Below, in pieces: positions 1,834-62,490 of a stretch of DNA of 64,000 nucleotides. The position numbers were made by a program, and so were the translations under genes. The stretch is from an uncultured Ruminococcus sp. Its GTDB lineage: Bacteria; Bacillota; Clostridia; Monoglobales; Monoglobaceae. Within the stretch, counting starts at the first letter, position 1. The number at the start of each line of letters is the position of its first letter. The notes beneath the pieces are model-generated. The model saw only the letters and a program-made list of their open reading frames with translations. It made no database searches and was not told the DNA's origin. The DNA is taken from the NCBI GenBank assembly GCA_902766745.1, contig CACXES010000046.1, forward strand, positions 1 through 64,000, written 5' to 3'.

Positions 1834-2208
1834 ATGGACAGAAATGCCGAAATGAGTCTTTTGTTTTCGTTTTACCGTAACATGCTTACACAGCGGCAGA
1901 TCGACTGTGTTGACCTGTATTATAACGAGGACTTATCTTTGTCCGAGATAAGCGAGAATTTGGGTATTACCAGGCAGGGAGTGCGTGATAACATAAAGCG
2001 TGCCGAGCATACAATGACGGACACCGAGGAAAGGCTCGGACTTGTGGCGAAATTCCTTGGAATTTCCGATAAGCTTCGGCGCATTGATGACATTATACGC
2101 GATATAGAAAAGTCGCCGAACATTCGATATCTGTCCGACGATATAAAGAGAAAAATCAACGAGATATTGATGATTATAGGTGATATAAACGAAGGGCAGT
2201 CGGATTAA
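1834..2208 (+). CDS. ylxM: YlxM/p13-like DNA-binding protein
   Basis: Small helix-turn-helix protein of the UPF0122/YlxM family (about 110-125 residues), always found directly upstream of ffh and linked to the signal recognition particle pathway. The helix-turn-helix is visible at LSLSEISENLGITRQGVRD, resembling sigma region 4. Start placed at ATG 1834 (MDRNAEMSLLF), which matches family starts. GTG 1825 or ATG 1771 are alternatives. The upstream stretch contains a direct repeat of ATAAAATGCGTTCCGA (about 1776-1806), so the extra in-frame ATGs there look like duplication products rather than starts. It stops 48 bases before ffh, in the same operon. Confidence 0.88.
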   Translation: MDRNAEMSLLFSFYRNMLTQRQIDCVDLYYNEDLSLSEISENLGITRQGVRDNIKRAEHTMTDTEERLGLVAKFLGISDKLRRIDDIIRDIEKSPNIRYLSDDIKRKINEILMIIGDINEGQSD

Positions 2209-2256
2209 ACAGGTCTTTGAGGCTGCCGAAATATTAATTAAATCGAGGTGAGAGGT

Positions 2257-3612
2257 ATGGCGTTTGAAAGTCTTTCCGATAAGCTGCAGAACACCTTTAA
2301 AAAGCTGCGCGGCAGGGGAAAGGTCAGCGAAAAGGATTTAAAGGACGCAATGCGTGAGGTTAAGCTGGCTCTTTTGGAGGCGGACGTTAACTTTAAGGTC
2401 GTAAAAGGCTTTGTAAAGAGCGTGTCGGAACGTGCCATGGGTGCGGAGGTAATGGAATCCCTCACTCCGGCGCAGCAGATAATAAAAATCGTAAACGAAG
2501 AACTGATTTCCCTTATGGGTGGAGAAGAGGCGAAGCTTAATGTGGCGTCAAAGCCTCCCATCGTTATAATGATGGCGGGTCTGCAGGGCGCAGGTAAGAC
2601 AACTACTGCGGCAAAGCTCGGCGGCTTGCTTAAAAAGCAGGGCAAGCGTCCGCTTCTGTGTGCCTGCGACGTATACCGCCCCGCTGCGGTACAGCAGCTT
2701 CAGGTAGTGGGCGGAAAGCTGGAGCTTCCGGTTTTTGCAAGAGAGGGAAGCCGTGATGCCGTCGGCATTGCCAAGGAGGGCTTGGCACACGCAATTGCCC
2801 ATGCGAACGATGTGCTTATTATTGATACGGCAGGTCGACTGCACATAGACGAAAAGCTTATGGAGGAGCTGAAGGAGATTTCGGCGGAGGTCAAACCGAC
2901 AGAGATTCTGCTCGTTGTTGACGCAATGACGGGACAGGATGCGGTAAACGTTGCCGAAAGCTTTAACGAGCAGCTTGAGATTAGCGGTGTGGTTCTGACG
3001 AAGCTTGACGGCGATACGAGAGGCGGTGCGGCACTGTCTGTCCGTTCGGTTACAAATAAGCCGATTAAGTTCTGCGGCATGGGTGAAAAGCTTACCGATT
3101 TGGAGGTATTTCACCCCGACAGAATGGCATCGAGAATACTCGGTATGGGTGATATGCTCAGCCTGATTGAAAAGGCGGAGCAGGCACTGGACATGAAAAA
3201 GGCAGAGGAGCTTGAACGCAAGCTTCGCTCACAGAGGTTCACCTTCAGCGACTTCCTTGACCAGATGGCGCAGATGAGGAATATGGGTTCCATGCAGGAT
3301 ATTTTGGGTATGCTGCCCGGGGTGGACAGAAATGCGCTTAAGAATGTTGACATAGACGAGAAGCGGCTTTCGCATATAGAGGCGATAATCACGTCAATGA
3401 CGCCGCGGGAGAGGGAGCTTACGGATAAGCTGACTCCGTCCCGCAAGGAGAGAATTGCCAAGGGAAGCGGCACAACAATGGCAGAGGTGAACAGCTTAAT
3501 CAAGCAGTTTGAGCAGATGCAGAAAATGATGAAGCAGCTCAGCGGAAGCATGGGCGGCAAGCGCGGTAAGCGGCGCGGAATGATGCGCGGCTTCGGAATG
3601 TTCGGAAGATAG
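2257..3612 (+). CDS. ffh: Signal recognition particle protein Ffh
   Basis: GTPase subunit of the signal recognition particle. It binds signal peptides of nascent membrane and secreted proteins and delivers ribosomes to FtsY. The order N domain, G domain, M domain is clear: P-loop GLQGAGKTTT near residue 107, DTAGR near 190, TKLDGDTRGGA near 247, and a methionine-rich C-terminus ending in RGMMRGFGMFGR. Length 451 is normal. ATG 2257 is preferred over GTG 2248 because GAGGTGAGAGG lies just before it and the protein then begins MAFESLSD. Second gene of the ylxM operon, followed by ribosome maturation genes. Confidence 0.98.
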   Translation: MAFESLSDKLQNTFKKLRGRGKVSEKDLKDAMREVKLALLEADVNFKVVKGFVKSVSERAMGAEVMESLTPAQQIIKIVNEELISLMGGEEAKLNVASKPPIVIMMAGLQGAGKTTTAAKLGGLLKKQGKRPLLCACDVYRPAAVQQLQVVGGKLELPVFAREGSRDAVGIAKEGLAHAIAHANDVLIIDTAGRLHIDEKLMEELKEISAEVKPTEILLVVDAMTGQDAVNVAESFNEQLEISGVVLTKLDGDTRGGAALSVRSVTNKPIKFCGMGEKLTDLEVFHPDRMASRILGMGDMLSLIEKAEQALDMKKAEELERKLRSQRFTFSDFLDQMAQMRNMGSMQDILGMLPGVDRNALKNVDIDEKRLSHIEAIITSMTPRERELTDKLTPSRKERIAKGSGTTMAEVNSLIKQFEQMQKMMKQLSGSMGGKRGKRRGMMRGFGMFGR

Positions 3613-3688
3613 CGTTCGGGAGTGTCGCCGCGATATAATAATTGAAAAATAATTAAATCATATATAATTTCTTTGGAGGTTTTACAAA

Positions 3689-3931
3689 ATGGCAGTTAAA
3701 ATTCGTTTAAAGAGAATGGGAGCAAAGCGTGCGCCCTTTTACCGTGTGGTTGTTGCGGACTCAAGATTTCCGCGTGACGGCAGATTTATCGAGCAGGTAG
3801 GAACCTACAACCCCATGACTGACCCGGCAACCTGCGAGTTTGACGCAGAGAAGATTCAGAAGTGGATCGGCAACGGGGCACAGCCTACCGATACGGTTAA
3901 GCGTCTGTTAAAAGAAAAGGGCATTATCTGA
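3689..3931 (+). CDS. rpsP: 30S ribosomal protein S16
   Basis: 80-residue S16 with the diagnostic start [19 protein letters not shown] and the [14 protein letters not shown] block. Component of the 30S subunit body. Strong GGAGG before ATG 3689. It lies 76 bases after ffh and 62 bases before khpA, in the widespread Firmicutes order rpsP-khpA-rimM-trmD. A weak TATAAT is present at 3663 but with poor spacing to a -35, so co-transcription with ffh is most likely. Confidence 0.98.
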
Positions 3932-3993
3932 TTTAACTTTGAAATCGGACAAGCAGCGTATATTTTGCGCTGTGATGAAAGGGGTTCCCGCAG

Positions 3994-4221
3994 ATGAAAG
4001 AGCTTTTGGAATTTATTGCAAAATCAATGGTAAGCAACCCGGATGCGGTTGAAGTTACCGTTACCGAGAAGGAGACGGCAACCGTACTCACTCTTCACGT
4101 TGCTGAGGAGGATATGGGTAAGGTTATCGGCAAGCAGGGAAGAATAGCAAAGGCTATCAGGACTGTTATTAAAGCGGCGGCAAGCGGCGGCAGCAAGAGA
4201 GTTGTTGTCGATATCGTCTGA
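3994..4221 (+). CDS. khpA: KH-domain RNA-binding protein KhpA (YlqC)
   Basis: 75-residue single KH domain protein with the GxxG loop GKQG in VIGKQGRIAKAIRTVI (residues about 47-62). KhpA homologues bind RNA, often with KhpB/Jag, and affect cell-wall growth and translation. Start ATG 3994 has AAAGGGG upstream. Typical position between rpsP and rimM. Confidence 0.95.
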   Translation: MKELLEFIAKSMVSNPDAVEVTVTEKETATVLTLHVAEEDMGKVIGKQGRIAKAIRTVIKAAASGGSKRVVVDIV

Positions 4222-5849: not shown

Positions 5850-8087
5850 ATGAAATGTCCAAAATGTGGTATTAATTTGCTTGATCATATTGATGTGTGT
5901 CCGTTTTGCAAAACTCCCATTCCGAAGAATACGGAGAATGCGGAGGCTACGACAGAGGAAAAGCAGCCGGTACGGCAGCCTGCGTCGGTCGGAGGTAATA
6001 CCGGGAGGTATGCGGCGATTGATCCCGATAAGGACAGCTATGACTTTGATTTGCAGTACACGCTGACCTTCAGGGATTCGGGCGAGATAAAGCAGGCGAT
6101 AGCCGATATGGATGCCGAGATTAGCCGAGATTCTTCAAAGAAAAAGATTGAAACACATCGCGAGACCTCTGAGCCGCGGTATTCTCTGGAGGAAATGCAG
6201 GCGGCGGCTCTCCGTGCCCAGGAGCGGCGTGAACGCAGAAAGAACGCCGCGGAAGGCGGAAAGAGAAAGAGGCCTTCTCATGCGGAAAAGCGCAGGAGTG
6301 ACGCCCTTCGTGCCGCAAAGGCACCCAAGAGGGATAGGGGAACGCATATTTCAAAGGATGCGTCGGTTAAGTCCAAAAAGGGTCTTTTTATCGGCATCGG
6401 TGTTCTTGCGGCAGTGGTTGCGGTCATTGTCGGCGTGGTTAATGTTGTTTCGTATTTCGCACATAAGACCCCGGAATACCCGACCCTCTACACTAAGGGG
6501 AATGAATTGTATTCCTACTATGACGGTGATGAGATAAAGCTGAGCGGAAACTTTGTCACAGCACAGCTGGAGAATAGCTCTGATGCCAAAAAGGACGAGA
6601 GCGGAAAAACAAGCTCCTCGTCAAAGTCATCGACCACAAAAAAGCTTGTTGACCCGAAAGTACCTGAGTCAAAGAAGCTTTCAGAGAAGGATTTTATAAA
6701 AATTTCCGATGACGGCTCGGTTGTGTATTTCTTAGAGAATGTGAATATGAACACCGGTTCCGGTGACCTTGTCTATTACTTAAACGGCAAGGAAAAGAGC
6801 CGCACTGTTGTTACGCAGAACGTGTATTGTGATTTTACCATCAGTGCGGACGGTTCGACGGTGTTCTACCTTAAAAATACCGACGGAAGCGGCGGACATG
6901 GCGAGCTTTGTCGCTGGACGGCATCGGACAAGGCGGAAATGAGCATAGATACCGATATCACCTCGGGTAACTTCAAGCCCTCCGTTGACAGCATGAGCAT
7001 AACCTACATTAAAAACTTCAACCCGACGGTACATACGGGTGACCTGTTGTACACGGGGTTCGGAGAGGGCGCAGAGAAGCAGAAGCGCGTGGATGAGAAG
7101 GTTGCGTTTGTGTTTGGCACCACGGCAAAGAGCAATGTGTACTTCTATGCCAAGGACTACGATACCAAGAAGGGAACCTATAACCTCTATATTCAGAGCA
7201 CTACCGAGGGTCCCAAGTCTGTGGCTGAAAACGCATTTTTGGCACCGGTGATTTCGAAAAAGTCCGACTCGGCGTATATTTACAGTAATTACAGCAATAA
7301 CTTCCAGACTCTGAGCTATCTGGATTTGACAAACGGTTCCAATAACAAGCTGTCCGATGAGGTTTCGGAGATAGTTAGGGTCAGAAACGACGAGGGTGCC
7401 GTTGTGTTCTCGAGAGCCTATGAGACGGACAAGGCGGATTATTACTTTGTCAGTGCAAAGTCGCCGAATGTTCAGAAGGTTGCCACTGCGATAAATCTTG
7501 CTGCGGCAGCCGAGGATGCAAGAATGGTTCCGTTTGATGCAAGCGCTGACTTCTCGACGATTGCGTATGTCGGCGGCTATGACACGGAGAAAAAGAAGGG
7601 TGCGCTCTACACGCTCTCGGTGATAAACGATTATGCAAGCTCGGAAAAGAGAATTTCGGATGACGCATACACCTGCAATGTATCAAGCGACGGAGCCGTT
7701 GTCAGATTTGCATCCGGCTACAATGCGGAGCAGAACACGGTAAACATTGTGTCCTACTCAAATTCAAATACCCTGTCATTGGCAGACGGCGCAGGCATGG
7801 GAGCCTTTACCTTTGACAAGAGCGGTGAATATACCATATTTGCAAAGGATTTTGCGGAAGATCCGAATACAAATCGGAAGAGTGCAAGCATCAAGTCGGT
7901 CACAAGCAAGGCGAAGGTCAAGGATATCGACAATGCCGCTGCGGCATACGGCTTAAAGAGCGACGGAACAATCCTGCTTAAAAAAGAGGATACGGAAACC
8001 GGAAATATGTGCCTTTATACCTCCACGGTTAAGGGGGGCAAGCCCGATAAGATTGCAGACGGCATCACCAATGTGCTGTTCTATTAG
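5850..8087 (+). CDS. Zinc-ribbon, single-pass membrane protein with large beta-propeller-like domain
   Basis: 745 residues of unknown function. The first 25 residues form a zinc ribbon with two CxxC pairs (CPKC and CPFC). A long basic, charged segment follows. One transmembrane helix near residues 175-203 (LFIGIGVLAAVVAVIVGVV) is followed by a Ser/Lys/Thr linker (about 250-270) and some 480 residues with repeated strand motifs of the type DGSxVxFL (SDDGSVVYFLENV, ADGSTVFYLKN, SSDGAVVRFASG), like PD40/WD40-type or DUF5050 propellers. The predicted topology is ribbon inside, propeller outside. ATG 5850 is preferred to GTG 5841 because AGAAAGG (5832-5838) is then 11 bases upstream. Fourteen bases separate it from nadD. 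Possibly an envelope sensor or scaffold; no catalytic motif is seen. Confidence 0.75.
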   Translation: MKCPKCGINLLDHIDVCPFCKTPIPKNTENAEATTEEKQPVRQPASVGGNTGRYAAIDPDKDSYDFDLQYTLTFRDSGEIKQAIADMDAEISRDSSKKKIETHRETSEPRYSLEEMQAAALRAQERRERRKNAAEGGKRKRPSHAEKRRSDALRAAKAPKRDRGTHISKDASVKSKKGLFIGIGVLAAVVAVIVGVVNVVSYFAHKTPEYPTLYTKGNELYSYYDGDEIKLSGNFVTAQLENSSDAKKDESGKTSSSSKSSTTKKLVDPKVPESKKLSEKDFIKISDDGSVVYFLENVNMNTGSGDLVYYLNGKEKSRTVVTQNVYCDFTISADGSTVFYLKNTDGSGGHGELCRWTASDKAEMSIDTDITSGNFKPSVDSMSITYIKNFNPTVHTGDLLYTGFGEGAEKQKRVDEKVAFVFGTTAKSNVYFYAKDYDTKKGTYNLYIQSTTEGPKSVAENAFLAPVISKKSDSAYIYSNYSNNFQTLSYLDLTNGSNNKLSDEVSEIVRVRNDEGAVVFSRAYETDKADYYFVSAKSPNVQKVATAINLAAAAEDARMVPFDASADFSTIAYVGGYDTEKKKGALYTLSVINDYASSEKRISDDAYTCNVSSDGAVVRFASGYNAEQNTVNIVSYSNSNTLSLADGAGMGAFTFDKSGEYTIFAKDFAEDPNTNRKSASIKSVTSKAKVKDIDNAAAAYGLKSDGTILLKKEDTETGNMCLYTSTVKGGKPDKIADGITNVLFY

Positions 8088-45360: not shown

Positions 45361-45394
45361 AAAAGGGTTTGGAGAATCTCCAAACCCTTATTTT
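45361..45394. terminator. Bidirectional terminator between gpmI and the rubrerythrin fragment
   Basis: AAGGGTTTGGAGA (45363-45375) pairs with TCTCCAAACCCTT (45377-45389), with A- and T-runs on both sides. Confidence 0.9.
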
Positions 45395-45405
45395 ACTTGA
45401 TTAAA

Positions 45406-45474
45406 TTAACCGAAGTATCTCTTAAGCATACCTTCAAAGCCCTTACCGTGTCTTGCTTCGTCTTGAAACTGCAT
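45406..45474 (-). pseudogene. 3' fragment of a rubrerythrin-like gene (element junction)
   Basis: Reading the minus strand from 45474 gives MQFQDEARHGKGFEGMLKRY followed by FG and a stop, 22 codons that match the C-terminus of rubrerythrin/ferritin-family NADH peroxidases. The rest of the gene is missing from the window: upstream sequence is unrelated. The mobile element has therefore very likely inserted in this gene, and 45406-45474 is the chromosomal side of the junction. A GAGGTG seven bases before the ATG (on the element side) might still allow translation of the fragment. Confidence 0.75.
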
Positions 45475-45533
45475 TTGCGATCACCTCGTATTTACTGCGT
45501 TTGTGGGACTTTTTGCCCCTGACGATTTTAGCA

Positions 45534-45572
45534 TTTCCCACGGATTTCCCACGTAAATTTTGTTTCCCACGG
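45534..45572 (-). repeat. Three direct repeats at the element end (possible recombinase arm sites)
   Basis: TTTCCCACG occurs at 45534, 45545 and 45563 on the plus strand, i.e. CGTGGGAAA three times on the minus strand, between the excisionase gene and the rubrerythrin junction. Tyrosine recombinases of Tn916 type bind short direct repeats near element ends; a role as arm or Xis sites is inferred. Confidence 0.6.
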
Positions 45573-45575
45573 AGG

Positions 45576-45827
45576 TTATTTTTGAACACCTTCATCGGGT
45601 TTCGTGGCTAATATCTCATCGAAATCCAAACCGTCATTTTTCTCTAAGAATTCTATCAGTGCTTTTCTTGTAACTTTTCTGCATCCGAGCTTTGTAGAAC
45701 GAAGTAAGCCCTTATTAATCAAAGCATAGACATAATTCTTATTTACTTTAAGTAGTCCTGCTACTTCCTTTATAGTATACACTAAATCTTCGTTTTTGTC
45801 AATGATTCGGTCGGTTTTTTGCATCAT
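45576..45827 (-). CDS. xis: Excisionase-family (HTH_17) DNA-binding protein
   Basis: 83 residues with a MerR-like winged helix-turn-helix, YTIKEVAGLLKVNKNYVYAL (about 17-36) followed by KLGCRKVTRKALIEFLEKN, the usual layout of excisionases that bend DNA at the element end and set integrase direction. AGGAGG lies upstream of the paired ATGs (45827/45824). Its stop is about 100 bases from the junction. An integrase gene would normally sit here and is absent. Confidence 0.8.
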   Translation of the reverse strand: MMQKTDRIIDKNEDLVYTIKEVAGLLKVNKNYVYALINKGLLRSTKLGCRKVTRKALIEFLEKNDGLDFDEILATKPDEGVQK

Positions 45828-45829
45828 TT

Positions 45830-46210
45830 TTATTCAACCTCCTTATATTTTAGCACTCCACAGTGAAAATGCTCGTTTAATTCCACTTTTAGTTTTTCTA
45901 ATCCACTTTTCTTTTGAACATAAACACTGTTAATATTCGTATCCAACAAAAAAGCTATCTCCAGTAGAGCTACATCATTTAATATGTTAAGTATTATGAT
46001 TATACGCTCTATTTTAGATAGCTTTAACAATCCATTTATTATAATAGCATTATCAATTTCCGTTCGCAGCATTGTTACTGCAATCTTATCGAGTATTTTC
46101 CTACTTTCCAAAGTTAATTCTCTGTCCGTAAAAACATATTCTTCTTTGTTATCATTTTTTTTAGTCAGGCACCAGTCAGTAATCATATATAACAAACTAA
46201 GCATTTCCAC
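45830..46210 (-). CDS. Sigma-70 region 4-like regulator
   Basis: 126 residues. The C-terminal half (KLSKIERIIIILNILNDVAL and LDTNINSVYVQKKSGLEKLK) resembles sigma region 4 / the sigma-like regulators of conjugative transposons; no region 2 is evident. Strong AAAGGAGGAG before ATG 46210. It ends two bases before the excisionase start, so it probably controls or is co-translated with it. A 340-nt structured leader precedes it. Confidence 0.65.
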   Translation of the reverse strand: MEMLSLLYMITDWCLTKKNDNKEEYVFTDRELTLESRKILDKIAVTMLRTEIDNAIIINGLLKLSKIERIIIILNILNDVALLEIAFLLDTNINSVYVQKKSGLEKLKVELNEHFHCGVLKYKEVE

Positions 46211-46554
46211 TCCTCCTTTCGTTCACGGTATGTATCGTGAACAGTGTCATGAACTGAGTATGCTGTCCGGCGCCTGTGGCTACAGGTCCATAGAAATCTC
46301 ATCTCTCCGCCTTCACTATGGCCGAGCCGCGGTTTACGGAAGTATCATTATACCCTCTACTTGTCATCGCGTTATATGGAAGCCACCCACATATAAGTGC
46401 TCTTGGTTCTGTTCGCCACGCAGACGGATAGCCGCTCTCAATAGAGGAATGTACCGGTCAGATTCAATATTAAGTTGTCAAAGAGCATTAGGGATGTCTT
46501 TTCATTAAGTAAGAACAGTAAAAAAAACATAAATCTAACCACCTTGAAAAAAAT
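46211..46554 (-). ncRNA. Long, hairpin-rich untranslated region upstream of the xis operon
   Basis: 383 bases separate the flanking genes and hold no convincing coding region. The stretch contains several short perfect hairpins (given in plus-strand order): GTTCACG/CGTGAAC (46221-46242) directly before the ribosome binding site, CCTGT/ACAGG (46273-46286), CCATAG/CTATGG (about 46288-46321), TATATG/CATATA (46374-46396), CTCT/AGAG (46436-46447). It begins after a terminator and lacks an obvious consensus promoter. It could be a leader RNA, a separate small RNA, or an antitermination target. No known family recognised. Confidence 0.45.
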
Positions 46555-46589
46555 TTTTTGAAAAAGGTCCCGGATTTCTCCGAGACCTT
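46555..46589 (-). terminator. Terminator after the Orf8-like gene
   Basis: Stem 46564-46574 with 46579-46589 (AAGGTCCCGGA / TCCGAGACCTT, one wobble), loop of four; on the minus strand followed by TTTTT. Confidence 0.9.
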
Positions 46590-46593
46590 AATT

Positions 46594-46785
46594 TTATATA
46601 TTAAACTTAGATATTTTTAGTGCTATCCGAATGAGTATGTATTGACGTAGATCTTCATCATATTCACCATCAATAAAACAATATTTGTTTATCAATGGTT
46701 CATACATCTCAATAATCTTTTCTAGTGCTTTATGCTCACCAGCAATAGCAGCTTGTAAAACAAAATGGAAATCATTGCTTGTCAT
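46594..46785 (-). CDS. HTH_16-type small regulator (Tn916 Orf8-like)
   Basis: 63 residues matching the HTH_16 domain found in Tn916-family Orf8 (FHFVLQAAIAGEHKALEKII and EYDEDLRQYILIRIALKI). In Tn916, Orf7 and Orf8 drive transfer gene expression. ATG 46785 overlaps the end of the sigma-like gene (ATGA at 46785-46782), implying coupling. GGCGGTGA is the likely ribosome binding site inside the previous gene. Confidence 0.82.
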   Translation of the reverse strand: MTSNDFHFVLQAAIAGEHKALEKIIEMYEPLINKYCFIDGEYDEDLRQYILIRIALKISKFNI

Positions 46786-47195
46786 GAATCACCACCGCCT
46801 TTTCCAAGCTTCTTCCGCAACAATTTAATTGCTCTTAATTTCTGATTGTACACATACTGAGGAGAGCAATTGAGATGTTTTGCGATGAATTCGGGCTTGA
46901 CCTCATCCACAAATAGCATTTTTAAAATTTTTTGTTTCATCAAAGGTAACTCATAAAATGCCTTCGCTAACCGTTCTTCTTCAAAATCGAATTCATCTTT
47001 TCCAACAGGTATCGGAATATCTTTATAGTCAACCAAAAATTCATCCTCAAACAAACTATCAATAGATATTGTGATAACCTCTTTTTTGTATTCCTCTAAA
47101 TAATTAATTTTTGCGTTTTTTATTAATTTTTCTAACCATACAGTGAACCGCGCACGCAAAGCGTCATGCTCACCATCGACCTGTCTGTGATACAT
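46782..47195 (-). CDS. Sigma-70 family-like regulator (Tn916 Orf7-like)
   Basis: 137 residues from ATG 47195, six bases after AGGAGG. Ends with a sigma region 4 motif, LPLMKQKILKMLFVDEVKPE then IAKHLNCSPQYVYNQKLRAI (about 90-128). The middle is acidic (GKDEFDFEEERLAKAF). Paired with the HTH_16 gene as in Tn916 Orf7/Orf8. The leader contains a terminator-like hairpin (47326-47371) and a perfect 8-bp inverted repeat (CATGCCAT-G-ATGGCATG, 47239-47255). Confidence 0.82.
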   Translation of the reverse strand: MYHRQVDGEHDALRARFTVWLEKLIKNAKINYLEEYKKEVITISIDSLFEDEFLVDYKDIPIPVGKDEFDFEEERLAKAFYELPLMKQKILKMLFVDEVKPEFIAKHLNCSPQYVYNQKLRAIKLLRKKLGKGGGDS

Positions 47196-47325
47196 GATGA
47201 TGCCTCCTTTTCGGCACACCACCACGACAGGTGTGCAACATGCCATGATGGCATGCTGTGATTAGTAAATATTAAATGAGAAACCACAGTCATTAAAACA
47301 TTGGAATCACCCCCTTTCTCGAAAG

Positions 47326-59580: not shown

Positions 59581-59930
59581 CTACTTTGCTACTGTTTCAG
59601 CAATCACATCTGCATCCGAATTATTTGCATTCACTGTTACAGACACATAGTTATTTACTATCTGCTTTGAGTTTGAGTTTTGGCTGCTCATAATCTGTGC
59701 AAGCTTGCTCCACAGCATATTAAGCGGAAGTATCGTCTCTGCACCTGCTTCACCGCCGTCCATTGCGTTTATGCCGTTCATACCTAACAGTGTCGGTCGT
59801 GTCATTTTATACCACTCAACACCGAACCTCGGCATAGACGGCGGATTAAGGCTGAACGAGCAGGTTATTTTGAAATGCGGCAGTTTTATCTTCGGCAATG
59901 ACCAATTGAAATTGAAGTAACCCTTTAATG
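59581..59930 (-). pseudogene. 3' fragment of a phage tail tape measure gene
   Basis: The readable part, FNFNWSLPKIKLPHFKI then SLNPPSMPRFGVEWYKM, GEAGAETILPLNMLW and a short tail, is the conserved C-terminus of tape measure proteins of Firmicutes siphophages. It is fused in frame to the portal N-terminus at about 59930, so everything between (rest of portal, capsid, head-tail and most of the tail genes) has been deleted. Confidence 0.82.
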
Positions 59931-60123
59931 GCAAACTTGCAACCGTTTCTGCAATGATACGCACACAGGCATACACTGCAGTGGTCTGCATAGCCGATCG
60001 TTACGTTATAGATTTACCTGACCACGTTCTGCCGAACGGAAAATATCGTCCGCCGCCGACATTGTAACCCATATGGTTCTTCGGCTTATCCCTTGACTTA
60101 ATTATTGATTTTATAGGTTTCAT
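59931..60123 (-). pseudogene. 5' fragment of a phage portal gene
   Basis: From ATG 60123 the frame reads MKPIKSIIKSRDKPKNHMGY and on to WSGKSIT, then TAA at 60003-60001, then RSAMQTTAVYACVRIIAETV and ASLPL. HK97-type portal proteins have ERSAMQTTAVYACVR here, so GAA has become TAA. Portal sequence ends near 59931, where tape-measure sequence begins. Confidence 0.85.
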
Positions 60124-60148
60124 ATGTTTTCTCCTTAAAAATGGGTAC

Positions 60149-60177
60149 AAAAAAAGCACATCAAACTGAGATGCTTT
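60149..60177 (-). terminator. Terminator of the toxin-antitoxin operon
   Basis: Minus strand: AAAGCATC pairs with GATGTGCTTT (bulged), followed by TTTTTTG. Confidence 0.7.
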
Positions 60178-60196
60178 CAAAAAATTTATTACAGTT

Positions 60197-60514
60197 TTAA
60201 TTATTAAGTTGTTTCTCTACATTTCGACCGCCGTACATTATACGAATAATCGTTACAGTTTTCTCATCCTCATATGGCAGATAAAATATCATATAGTTGT
60301 TTACAGGAAAAAATCTCAATCCTCTGCTTTTCCACGGCTCTTTTTTATACACCGGAAATCTGAGCGGATTCTCGTCCAGTTTTGATATTTCTTCCATTAT
60401 TGCTGTCACTTGTTTCTTTGCAGTTAATGGCACAAATAAGCTATATGCGATATACTCATATATGCCTCGCAAATCATTTTCTGCTTTTTCTGTATAGTAC
60501 ACATTCCAACTCAT
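60197..60514 (-). CDS. RelE/ParE family toxin
   Basis: 105 residues. Start SWNVYYTEKAENDLRGIYEY and the C-terminal strands RFFPVNNYMIFYLPYEDEKT and IIRIMYGGRNVEKQL are typical of RelE/ParE toxins, which cut mRNA on the ribosome or poison gyrase. Four-base overlap with the antitoxin gene (ATGA). Intact although it lies inside decayed phage genes. Confidence 0.92.
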   Translation of the reverse strand: MSWNVYYTEKAENDLRGIYEYIAYSLFVPLTAKKQVTAIMEEISKLDENPLRFPVYKKEPWKSRGLRFFPVNNYMIFYLPYEDEKTVTIIRIMYGGRNVEKQLNN

Positions 60515-60816
60515 ATGCCATACTCCTGATTCATTCTCTCTGCCACGCTTTGAGCGGATATGATTCTACCGGCATTTACGTCTTGCATACCCATTTCAAT
60601 CTCTGCATTAAATTGTTCTTCTGTTAATGTGCTCATGTCTACCATTTGATATTTGGGAAGCTTCATTTCAAAAGGAATTCCTTTCTGCAAAACCACCTGT
60701 CTTAAAAACATATTTATTGCATTTGACATTGGTACACCTAATTGTTCTAAAATAACTTCTGCCTGTTCTTTTACTGTAGGTTCTACTCTTGCAAAGATAT
60801 TTGATGTTTTAGCCAT
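60511..60816 (-). CDS. RelB/DinJ family antitoxin
   Basis: 101 residues with ribbon-helix-helix start NIFARVEPTVKEQAEVILEQ and LGVPMSNAINMFLRQVVLQK, the RelB/DinJ signature. The C-terminal part wraps the toxin. AGGAGG precedes ATG 60816. The pair represses its own promoter in known systems. Confidence 0.93.
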   Translation of the reverse strand: MAKTSNIFARVEPTVKEQAEVILEQLGVPMSNAINMFLRQVVLQKGIPFEMKLPKYQMVDMSTLTEEQFNAEIEMGMQDVNAGRIISAQSVAERMNQEYGI

Positions 60817-60839
60817 CTCTATCGCCTCCTAACAATTAT

Positions 60840-60868
60840 ATTATACCACATTGTATTGCGTTATGCAA
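60840..60868 (-). promoter_or_regulatory. Promoter of the toxin-antitoxin operon
   Basis: Minus strand: TTGCAT (60868-60863), 17-bp spacer, TATAAT (60845-60840). Confidence 0.88.
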
Positions 60869-60889
60869 GCATTTTGCAAATATTTTTTA

Positions 60890-62043
60890 TCAAAACACAA
60901 TTGTTACACGATTATCATAAACACTCCCTTGATTCTGACCAACATTTCTCACTGCACGGTCAAGTGCCATAACCGACGCAACTGATCCGCCTATTCGTTC
61001 GGTGCTGTGTTTCTTCGACAGCATTATATTCTCCGCTGCGTCTGTTTCTACGCATACATTATCAAGGTTCCATCTTAATACCGGATGGTTGTTATGTATA
61101 ATCTTCTCTTTCAGAACAAGTGAATACAACTCTTTTGCCTGTGGACTCATATCCTTGAACCCTTATCCGAACGGCACCATAGTAAGACCTTCGTCCTGCA
61201 GATTCAAAATTATCTGTGTTGCATTGTATCGGTCATAAGCTATTTCCCGTACTACATGCTTGCTTGCAATCTCCTTTATATCCGCCTCAATTCTTCGATA
61301 GTAAACCACGTTACCCTCTGTTGTGCGTATAAAGCCGTTTGCCTTCCATATGACATACGGCACATGGTCACGGCGTACACGCTGACGAAGGTTTTCTTCC
61401 GGTATCCAAAAATGTGGAATTATTATATATTTTTCTGCATCATTTCTCGGCGGGAACACAAGCACGAATACTGTAAGTTCAAGTGCCGTTGAAAGGTCAA
61501 GACCTGCGTAGCATTCTCTGCCACGCAATGTATTTATATCAATCACCTCATCGCATGCATCCCACTTCTCCATCTGCATCCAGCGTGTCGACTGTTTACT
61601 CATTGATTAAGTCTTAATTGACGGAATAGATTCTCCTCCGCAGGATTTTCCTTTGCCGATAAAAACGCAGCACGAACCTTTTCTATATCAACAGTATGTC
61701 CAAGCGATGGGTTTGCCTTGTACCAGTTCCGTCCATCCGTCCATCCGTCCAATCATCGGTATATTCAATGCCATATATTACAGGATAAAATGTCGGATCC
61801 GCTTTTCTGCCATTTAAAATATCAACTGCCTTTTGATGCTGTTCAAAACAGATACTGTTCTTGTCAGTTCCGGCGGTTGTTATGAGGAAAAACAACGGCT
61901 GTGTTCGTGCATCACCGGAGCCTTTTGTCATCACATCAAATAGCTCTCGGTTCGGCTGTGAGTGCAGTTCGTCAAATATAACGCCGTGAACATTCAGACC
62001 GTGATTTGTAAAAGCCTCACTTGACAATACCTGATAATATGAA
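60890..62043 (-). pseudogene. Decayed phage terminase large subunit gene
   Basis: Fragments in three frames together give a TerL lacking its N-terminal ATPase. They are SYYQVLSSEAFTNHG / HGVIFDELHSQPNREL (Walker B DELH), NWYKANPSLGHTVDIEKV, KQSTRWMQMEKWDACDEV / RECYAGLDLS (nuclease Asp), and FKDMSPQAKELYS up to the stop. Lesions: 5' end joined to terS; an 8-bp unit present three times (61728-61751) that shifts the frame; TGG to TGA at 61602-61600 with loss of one A in the following A-run; a TAA at 61165-61163 where the family has Gln. Confidence 0.9.
61728..61751 (+). repeat. Triple tandem 8-bp repeat inside terL
   Basis: TCCGTCCA three times without interruption. Two extra copies add 16 bases and change the reading frame. 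Confidence 0.95.
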
Positions 62044-62409
62044 ACAGAACTTGCTCATCTGTTTCATATACTGCTGTGCAATAGATACCTGTGGTACTTG
62101 CTGCCAATATCCGCTCGGCATTTTTACAATAGCACCGTGTTTTGAAATAAACTCCTCCGCCTCTTTCCAACGAGCATAGCTTTGGCGGTATCCTGCAAAT
62201 GCCGCCACATCAACCTCGGTAAGGATACCGAGTTGTTCCATCTGCTTCGCAAGACGTTTCCATTCCTTTTTCGCCTCATCATCAAGCCATTTAGGACAGG
62301 TCGGAGCTTTTTTCGGCTTTGGTTCATTGGTATTTAACTGTCGTTTACTCGGATTGCCCTCAAGCTGTTTTATAGACGTAGGCTTGGGTGTCCGACATCT
62401 CTGCACCAT
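62044..62409 (-). pseudogene. Truncated phage terminase small subunit, P27 family
   Basis: From ATG 62409 the protein reads RTPKPTSIKQLEGNPSKRQL and PTCPKWLDDEAKKEWKRLAK to QQYMKQMSKFC, the P27 family DNA-packaging subunit that recognises pac/cos. At about 62044 it runs into terL sequence out of frame and stops nine codons later (62017), so its last residues and the terL ATPase domain were removed by one deletion. GGGAGGTG precedes the start. Confidence 0.85.
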
Positions 62410-62490
62410 TTGCATCACCTCCCGTAAATTGCTGTAATCAAAAACAGATCCTTTCGGCTCTGCTGGATTTCGTAAAATTTTTTAATTATA

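Follow-up and report, generated by a model that had tools for sequence, protein, structure and literature searches.

Genomic context of a structured intergenic region

In the window, by which we mean the whole 64,000-nucleotide stretch analysed, a set of small minus-strand genes encloses a non-coding gap. Upstream lie a gene for a sigma-70 region-4-like regulator (46782-47246 (-)), in the position of Tn916 orf7, with a weak, below cut-off Pfam match to Sigma70_r4_2 and a PHROG sigma factor match (E 3e-12), and one for an HTH_16 protein (46594-46785 (-); Pfam PF12645, E 2.5e-16), in the position of Tn916 orf8. Downstream, on the same strand, the first gene encodes another sigma-70 region-4-like protein (45830-46204 (-); Pfam Sigma70_r4_2, E 0.0013, below cut-off), with its ribosome binding site at 46219-46210, followed by an HTH_17 excisionase-like protein (45576-45827 (-); PF12728, E 7e-12, together with PHROG excisionase matches). 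The gap runs from the end of the HTH_16 gene (46594) to the start of the sigma-like gene (near 46204). It is non-coding, and its minus strand is structured: a 361-nt fold of this strand reaches -100.1 kcal/mol (z -2.1; of 100 shuffles, 3 did equally well), against an unremarkable z of -0.4 for the plus strand. Folding energy by itself is weak evidence and would be unconvincing alone; we accept a structured RNA because of a family match and covariation (see below), which are strong. The first-pass annotation had described a structured non-coding gap of about 340 bases at 46211-46554, which our analysis confirms and assigns to the minus strand; these coordinates fit well, and the conserved unit, comprising all parts from a boxA-like element to the 3' strand of the closing helix P1, occupies 46487-46263 (-). 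The hairpin that it had reported abutting the ribosome binding site (GTTCACG..CGTGAAC, 46221-46242 (-)) is real, but it is no part of the conserved RNA, and the nearest relative, locus L165, lacks it. A terminator-like hairpin (AAGGTCTCGG..CCGGGACCTT, then a T run; 46564-46589 (-)) can be read from the sequence 5' of the boxA; it is absent from the list produced by an automatic terminator scan.

An antisense open reading frame of 174 aa (45984-46508 (+)) crosses the gap. We rejected a coding origin of the region, since this frame overlaps the sigma-like gene and corresponds to the antisense orf5 of Tn916, shown by others to have no function as a protein; no conserved sense-strand frame, which the first-pass annotation had held to speak against an RNA, was found. 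The same frame in the window and its counterpart in a Tn916-like copy in pCTN1046 (L155:1266-1517 (-)), both covering the RNA core, are annotated as hypothetical proteins in which the reverse complement of ATAATGATACTTCC reads 'GSII'; they are probably annotation artefacts.

A member of the pemK RNA family

Positions 46351-46288 (-) of the window match the Rfam family RF02913, 'pemK RNA', with 71.3 bits (cut-off 34.8, E 7.5e-11) over the whole model (positions 1-61 of 61), and the pemK head AUAAUGAUACUYC is present as ATAATGATACTTCC at 46351 (-). This assignment of the core is also supported by alignment and by the mapping of Tn916 canT described below. In an Rfam scan of the window, no other antiterminator RNA family reached its cut-off. 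The earlier statement that nothing known resembles this sequence is thus contradicted both by RF02913 and by homology to canT. The proposal of a new element-borne regulatory RNA survives in part: the RNA is element-borne, structured, and located upstream of excision-type genes, but its family was already catalogued. The window RNA is a member of this known family, with a larger structure than the RF02913 model, which describes the core only and includes neither the boxA nor the P1, P2, and inner hairpins. No established function for RF02913 emerged from the literature searched.

The same genome carries a second RF02913 copy (C56), between a pair of sigma-like and HTH_16 genes and a Tn916-type xis. 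The family occurs in 21 of 51 genomes of the order and, across the phylum, in 26 of the 398 genomes sampled, and the pattern-scan matches listed include genomes of Bacillus, Enterococcus, Oscillospiraceae, Lachnospiraceae, and Tenericutes-type MAGs. BLASTN of the whole region against plasmids and phages gave almost no matches because the sequence diverges while the structure persists. The motif ATAATGATACT is common to 116 of 124 loci, many of them found by a pattern holding most of it; since the search pattern used to collect loci L031-L150 lay inside the core, core conservation in these loci partly reflects selection, whereas the boxA and P1/P2 tests concern sequences outside the pattern.

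Enlarged architecture of the RNA

Comparison of about 125 non-redundant loci revealed a shared plan consisting of, in order, boxA, the 5' strand of P1, RYACRTTY, the 5' strand of P2, hairpins, the 3' strand of P2, the core, a hairpin, and the 3' strand of P1, indicating that the functional unit is bigger than the RF02913 model. The boxA-like element of the window (TGCTCTTTGACAACT, 46473-46487 (-)) matches the consensus TGYTCTTTGAMAA at 13 of 13 positions. Such elements are enriched upstream of pemK RNAs: in 71 of 114 loci the 300 bases upstream contain the consensus at 12 or more of its 13 positions, versus 0 or 1 in four controls, and a broadened consensus is complete upstream in 93 of 114 (0-3 in the four controls). 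The domain that follows is closed by the long-range helix P1, formed in the window by CTGACCGG (46454-46461 (-)) and CCGGACAG (46263-46270 (-)) with one A-A mismatch. The junction motif RYACRTT (GTACATT here, 46448-46454 (-)), present in 65 of the boxA-carrying loci, leads into P2, with strands CCTCTA (46442-46447 (-)) and TAGAGG (46354-46359 (-)); an internal hairpin (TTATATG..CATATAA, 46372-46396 (-)), read from the sequence and kept in L165, lies between them. After the core, a 3' hairpin (CCTGTAGCCACAGG, 46273-46286 (-)) has a counterpart at the same place in most loci.

Both helices covary, as the first-pass annotation had suggested checking. When pairing within a locus was compared with pairing between loci in non-redundant sets, P1 scored 18.8 within and 13.2 between (19 loci) and P2 scored 15.9 and 9.4 (17 loci), neither observed value being reached in any of 100,000 permutations (p about 1e-5). 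When the window RNA is folded as a single sequence, the lowest-energy structure (-64.1) lacks P1 and P2, and forcing them gives -58.1; support for the two predicted helices is comparative and does not come from the minimum-energy fold. L165, from the same family as the window genome, illustrates this conservation: it shares 85% identity with the window from boxA to P1' but has largely diverged outside, its P2 is fully swapped (CCCTGCC/GGCAGGG versus CCTCTA/TAGAGG), and its next gene encodes a 614-aa serine recombinase instead of a sigma-like protein. Since L165 keeps only the stretch from boxA to P1' despite this different next gene, the RNA behaves as a conserved unit with marked edges. Another locus (L166, G401:C2) contains a broken copy that keeps the boxA and the 5' half, has lost the core, and runs straight into a sigma-like gene resembling that of the window.

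Equivalence with canT of Tn916

Wirachman and Grossman (2024; PMC11658703) demonstrated experimentally that canT, an RNA of Tn916 located between orf8 and xis, is a processive antiterminator. It works in cis and in a single orientation, overcomes a series of several unrelated terminators, and is required after excision for expression of the Tn916 genes beyond terminator T1, so that transfer-gene expression is coupled to circularisation. Their canT mutants excised at unchanged frequency while expression past T1 was abolished; the point mutation canT(S3) caused loss of antitermination but had little effect in a 400-bp fragment, and mutating T1 restored expression in canT(S3) (PMC11658703).

We mapped the published canT coordinates on the Tn916-like copy L155, where the orf8 stop ends at 1040 and RF02913 matches with 55 bits exactly between orf8 and xis. 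The canT(S3) mutation, ATA to TGC from nucleotide 283 after the orf8 stop, corresponds to L155 1323-1325 and coincides exactly with the AUA triplet that opens the pemK core, the equivalent of window 46351-46349 (-). The 162-base deletion (Delta162; L155 1269-1430) takes out the 3' strand of P2 and the entire core. The mapping was checked against orf5 codons given in the paper, A30 (GCA) and the tyrosine (TAT) at S3, both of which L155 has in frame. Because both RNAs match RF02913, S3 hits core bases 1-3, and the position is shared, our comparison indicates that pemK RNA and canT are the same RNA family. The window RNA and canT both come after orf7/orf8-type genes and before xis on the same strand, and they share the core, including the AUA mutated in S3, and the boxA-P1-P2 layout; they differ in that the window core loop is short, without the approximately 40-nt insert, and in that the next gene in the window is sigma-like and no integrase follows. 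The canT publication (PMC11658703) names neither Rfam nor boxA, and the literature searched contained neither the equation of pemK with canT nor the addition of boxA, P1, and P2; the 2017 description of the pemK motif might hold one. The active 452-bp canT reporter fragment starts at L155 1166, inside the boxA (1160-1174), so canT does not strictly depend on an intact boxA, which may enhance its activity without being indispensable. Upstream of orf7, L155:1-103 has a partial match, below cut-off, to SQ2397 (RF03532), a cis-regulator of an HTH transcription factor, possibly a second structured RNA in the Tn916 regulatory region.

Neighbours of pemK RNAs

Recombinases dominate among the large downstream ORFs (about 64 of 72, counting one ORF per locus), with 42 Resolvase and 22 Phage_integrase proteins. 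The small gene between RNA and recombinase varies widely (HTH_17 in 19, PemK toxin in 10, Tn916-Xis in 8, and DUF3173 in 7 of 69, besides others), and the gene next to the RNA can also be DUF6462, TnpW, or the recombinase itself. The upstream neighbours (n=88) comprise 54 sigma-70 region-4 proteins and 14 HTH_16 proteins. The family name therefore refers to a minority neighbour, the PemK toxin being found in only 10 of the 69 neighbours scanned; the constant feature is a regulator-RNA-recombinase module. In L179 (G402:C1), around position 6160 of the locus, a pemK RNA directly precedes parA/parB-like genes and not a recombinase; the RNA may serve as leader of a replication or partition operon too.

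A probable processive antiterminator

These comparisons make it very probable that the window RNA is a canT-class antiterminator, processive and acting in cis, that serves as leader of the excision module of a mobile element. The first-pass annotation, which had mentioned antitermination as a mode of regulation at such sites, guessed rightly, given the homology to the experimentally proven canT. RNA polymerase arriving from the sigma and HTH_16 genes would transcribe the boxA-like sequence first and then the domain closed by P1 that holds P2, the AUAAUGAUAC core, and the internal hairpins. Once folded, this RNA would act in cis on the same polymerase and make it resistant to intrinsic terminators, so that in such elements it could pass through xis/int and, after excision and circularisation, cross the joint towards distant replication and transfer genes. 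Since canT makes polymerase ignore terminators, the window RNA probably switches on distant genes of its mobile element. For the window copy we infer antitermination by homology to canT, as well as binding of NusB/S10 to its boxA. The scanned contig of the window contains no integrase, serine recombinase, VirD4, or transfer gene, so the operon served by the RNA is not visible there; the element may have decayed or been broken by assembly.

How the RNA would act on polymerase is more finely balanced. Within the antiterminator interpretation, the chances appear about even that it is a host-factor-dependent antiterminator of the nut/rrn type, in which NusB/S10 would be drawn in by boxA to form a complex that the P1-P2-core domain makes complete. 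The boxA-like sequence stands immediately 5' of P1 in most loci, and several clostridial loci carry a variant, TACCTTGAAAACTG, resembling boxA-like repeats in the 16S-23S spacer of Eubacterium minutum (one complete genome), the leader of which matches it less well than the spacer repeats do; against this, the 452-bp canT fragment is active with a truncated boxA. The window RNA resembles the rrn leader and lambda nut in having a boxA-type sequence 5' of a structured RNA that acts, or for the window copy would act, in cis on polymerase, but the RNA domain is unrelated and we know of no boxB or N-type protein for RNAs of the window type. It likewise resembles pLS20 conAn, EAR, and HK022 put, element- or operon-borne RNAs causing processive antitermination. 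We rejected conAn as a member of the same family, as pLS20 1900-4000 contains no RF02913 match at E up to 1.

It is unlikely that the RNA is instead a riboswitch-like or attenuator-type cis-regulator whose control reaches no further than the next one or two genes (sigma-like, xis), even though most loci have small genes directly downstream of it, Rfam types RF02913 as 'Cis-reg' under a name pointing the same way, and the window carries the extra hairpin at the ribosome binding site. That hairpin is not conserved, the identity of the next gene changes from locus to locus as described above, and canT mutants kept their excision frequency while losing expression beyond T1 (PMC11658703). Finally, a promoter with incidental structure, in which the conserved ATAAT would be a -10 box, was rejected as highly improbable: although the window reads GGGTATAATGATAC, a T precedes ATAAT in only 30 of 124 loci, a -35-like hexamer occurs in 1 of 124, the helices covary, and rescue of canT(S3) by the T1 mutation (PMC11658703) argues against a lost promoter.

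Extended beyond the window, the antiterminator interpretation would make the pemK family one large class of processive antiterminators of integrative elements across Firmicutes, built of a boxA and a 180-290-nt domain closed by P1, acting on the RNA polymerase of the host, possibly together with NusB/S10, and coupling transfer-gene expression to excision in many elements beyond the relatives of Tn916, a generalisation that we favour with some reserve. A motif so far described only by computation gains a likely function, backed by existing Tn916 mutant data, and canT, proven but structurally unexplained, gains a conserved architecture of core, boxA, P1, and P2. Because the same RNA stands next to recombinase genes across many Firmicutes, terminator read-through is probably the rule in the control of mobile-element genes rather than a peculiarity of Tn916, and the P1 and P2 helices and the boxA offer simple mutational handles on how the RNA makes polymerase ignore terminators.

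Element end and nested remains

The element ends at 45475-45573 (-) with three TTTCCCACG repeats (TTTCCCACGKA), beyond which a rubrerythrin gene is represented by its 3' end (QDEARHGKGFEGMLKRYFG*, 45399-45478). As this 3' fragment adjoins the element-end repeats, the rubrerythrin gene is the probable insertion target. Its 5' part (N-terminus), searched in the assembly, was not found, also not joined to the other end of the element, and that other end was sought and not identified; a 12-bp repeat at 45467/100541 looks like chance. On both strands, the perfect hairpin at 45363-45389, just outside the element end, scores as a terminator. Inside the element, 59581-62418 contains pieces of genes for a phage portal-like protein and a terminase large subunit and is a nested phage remnant.
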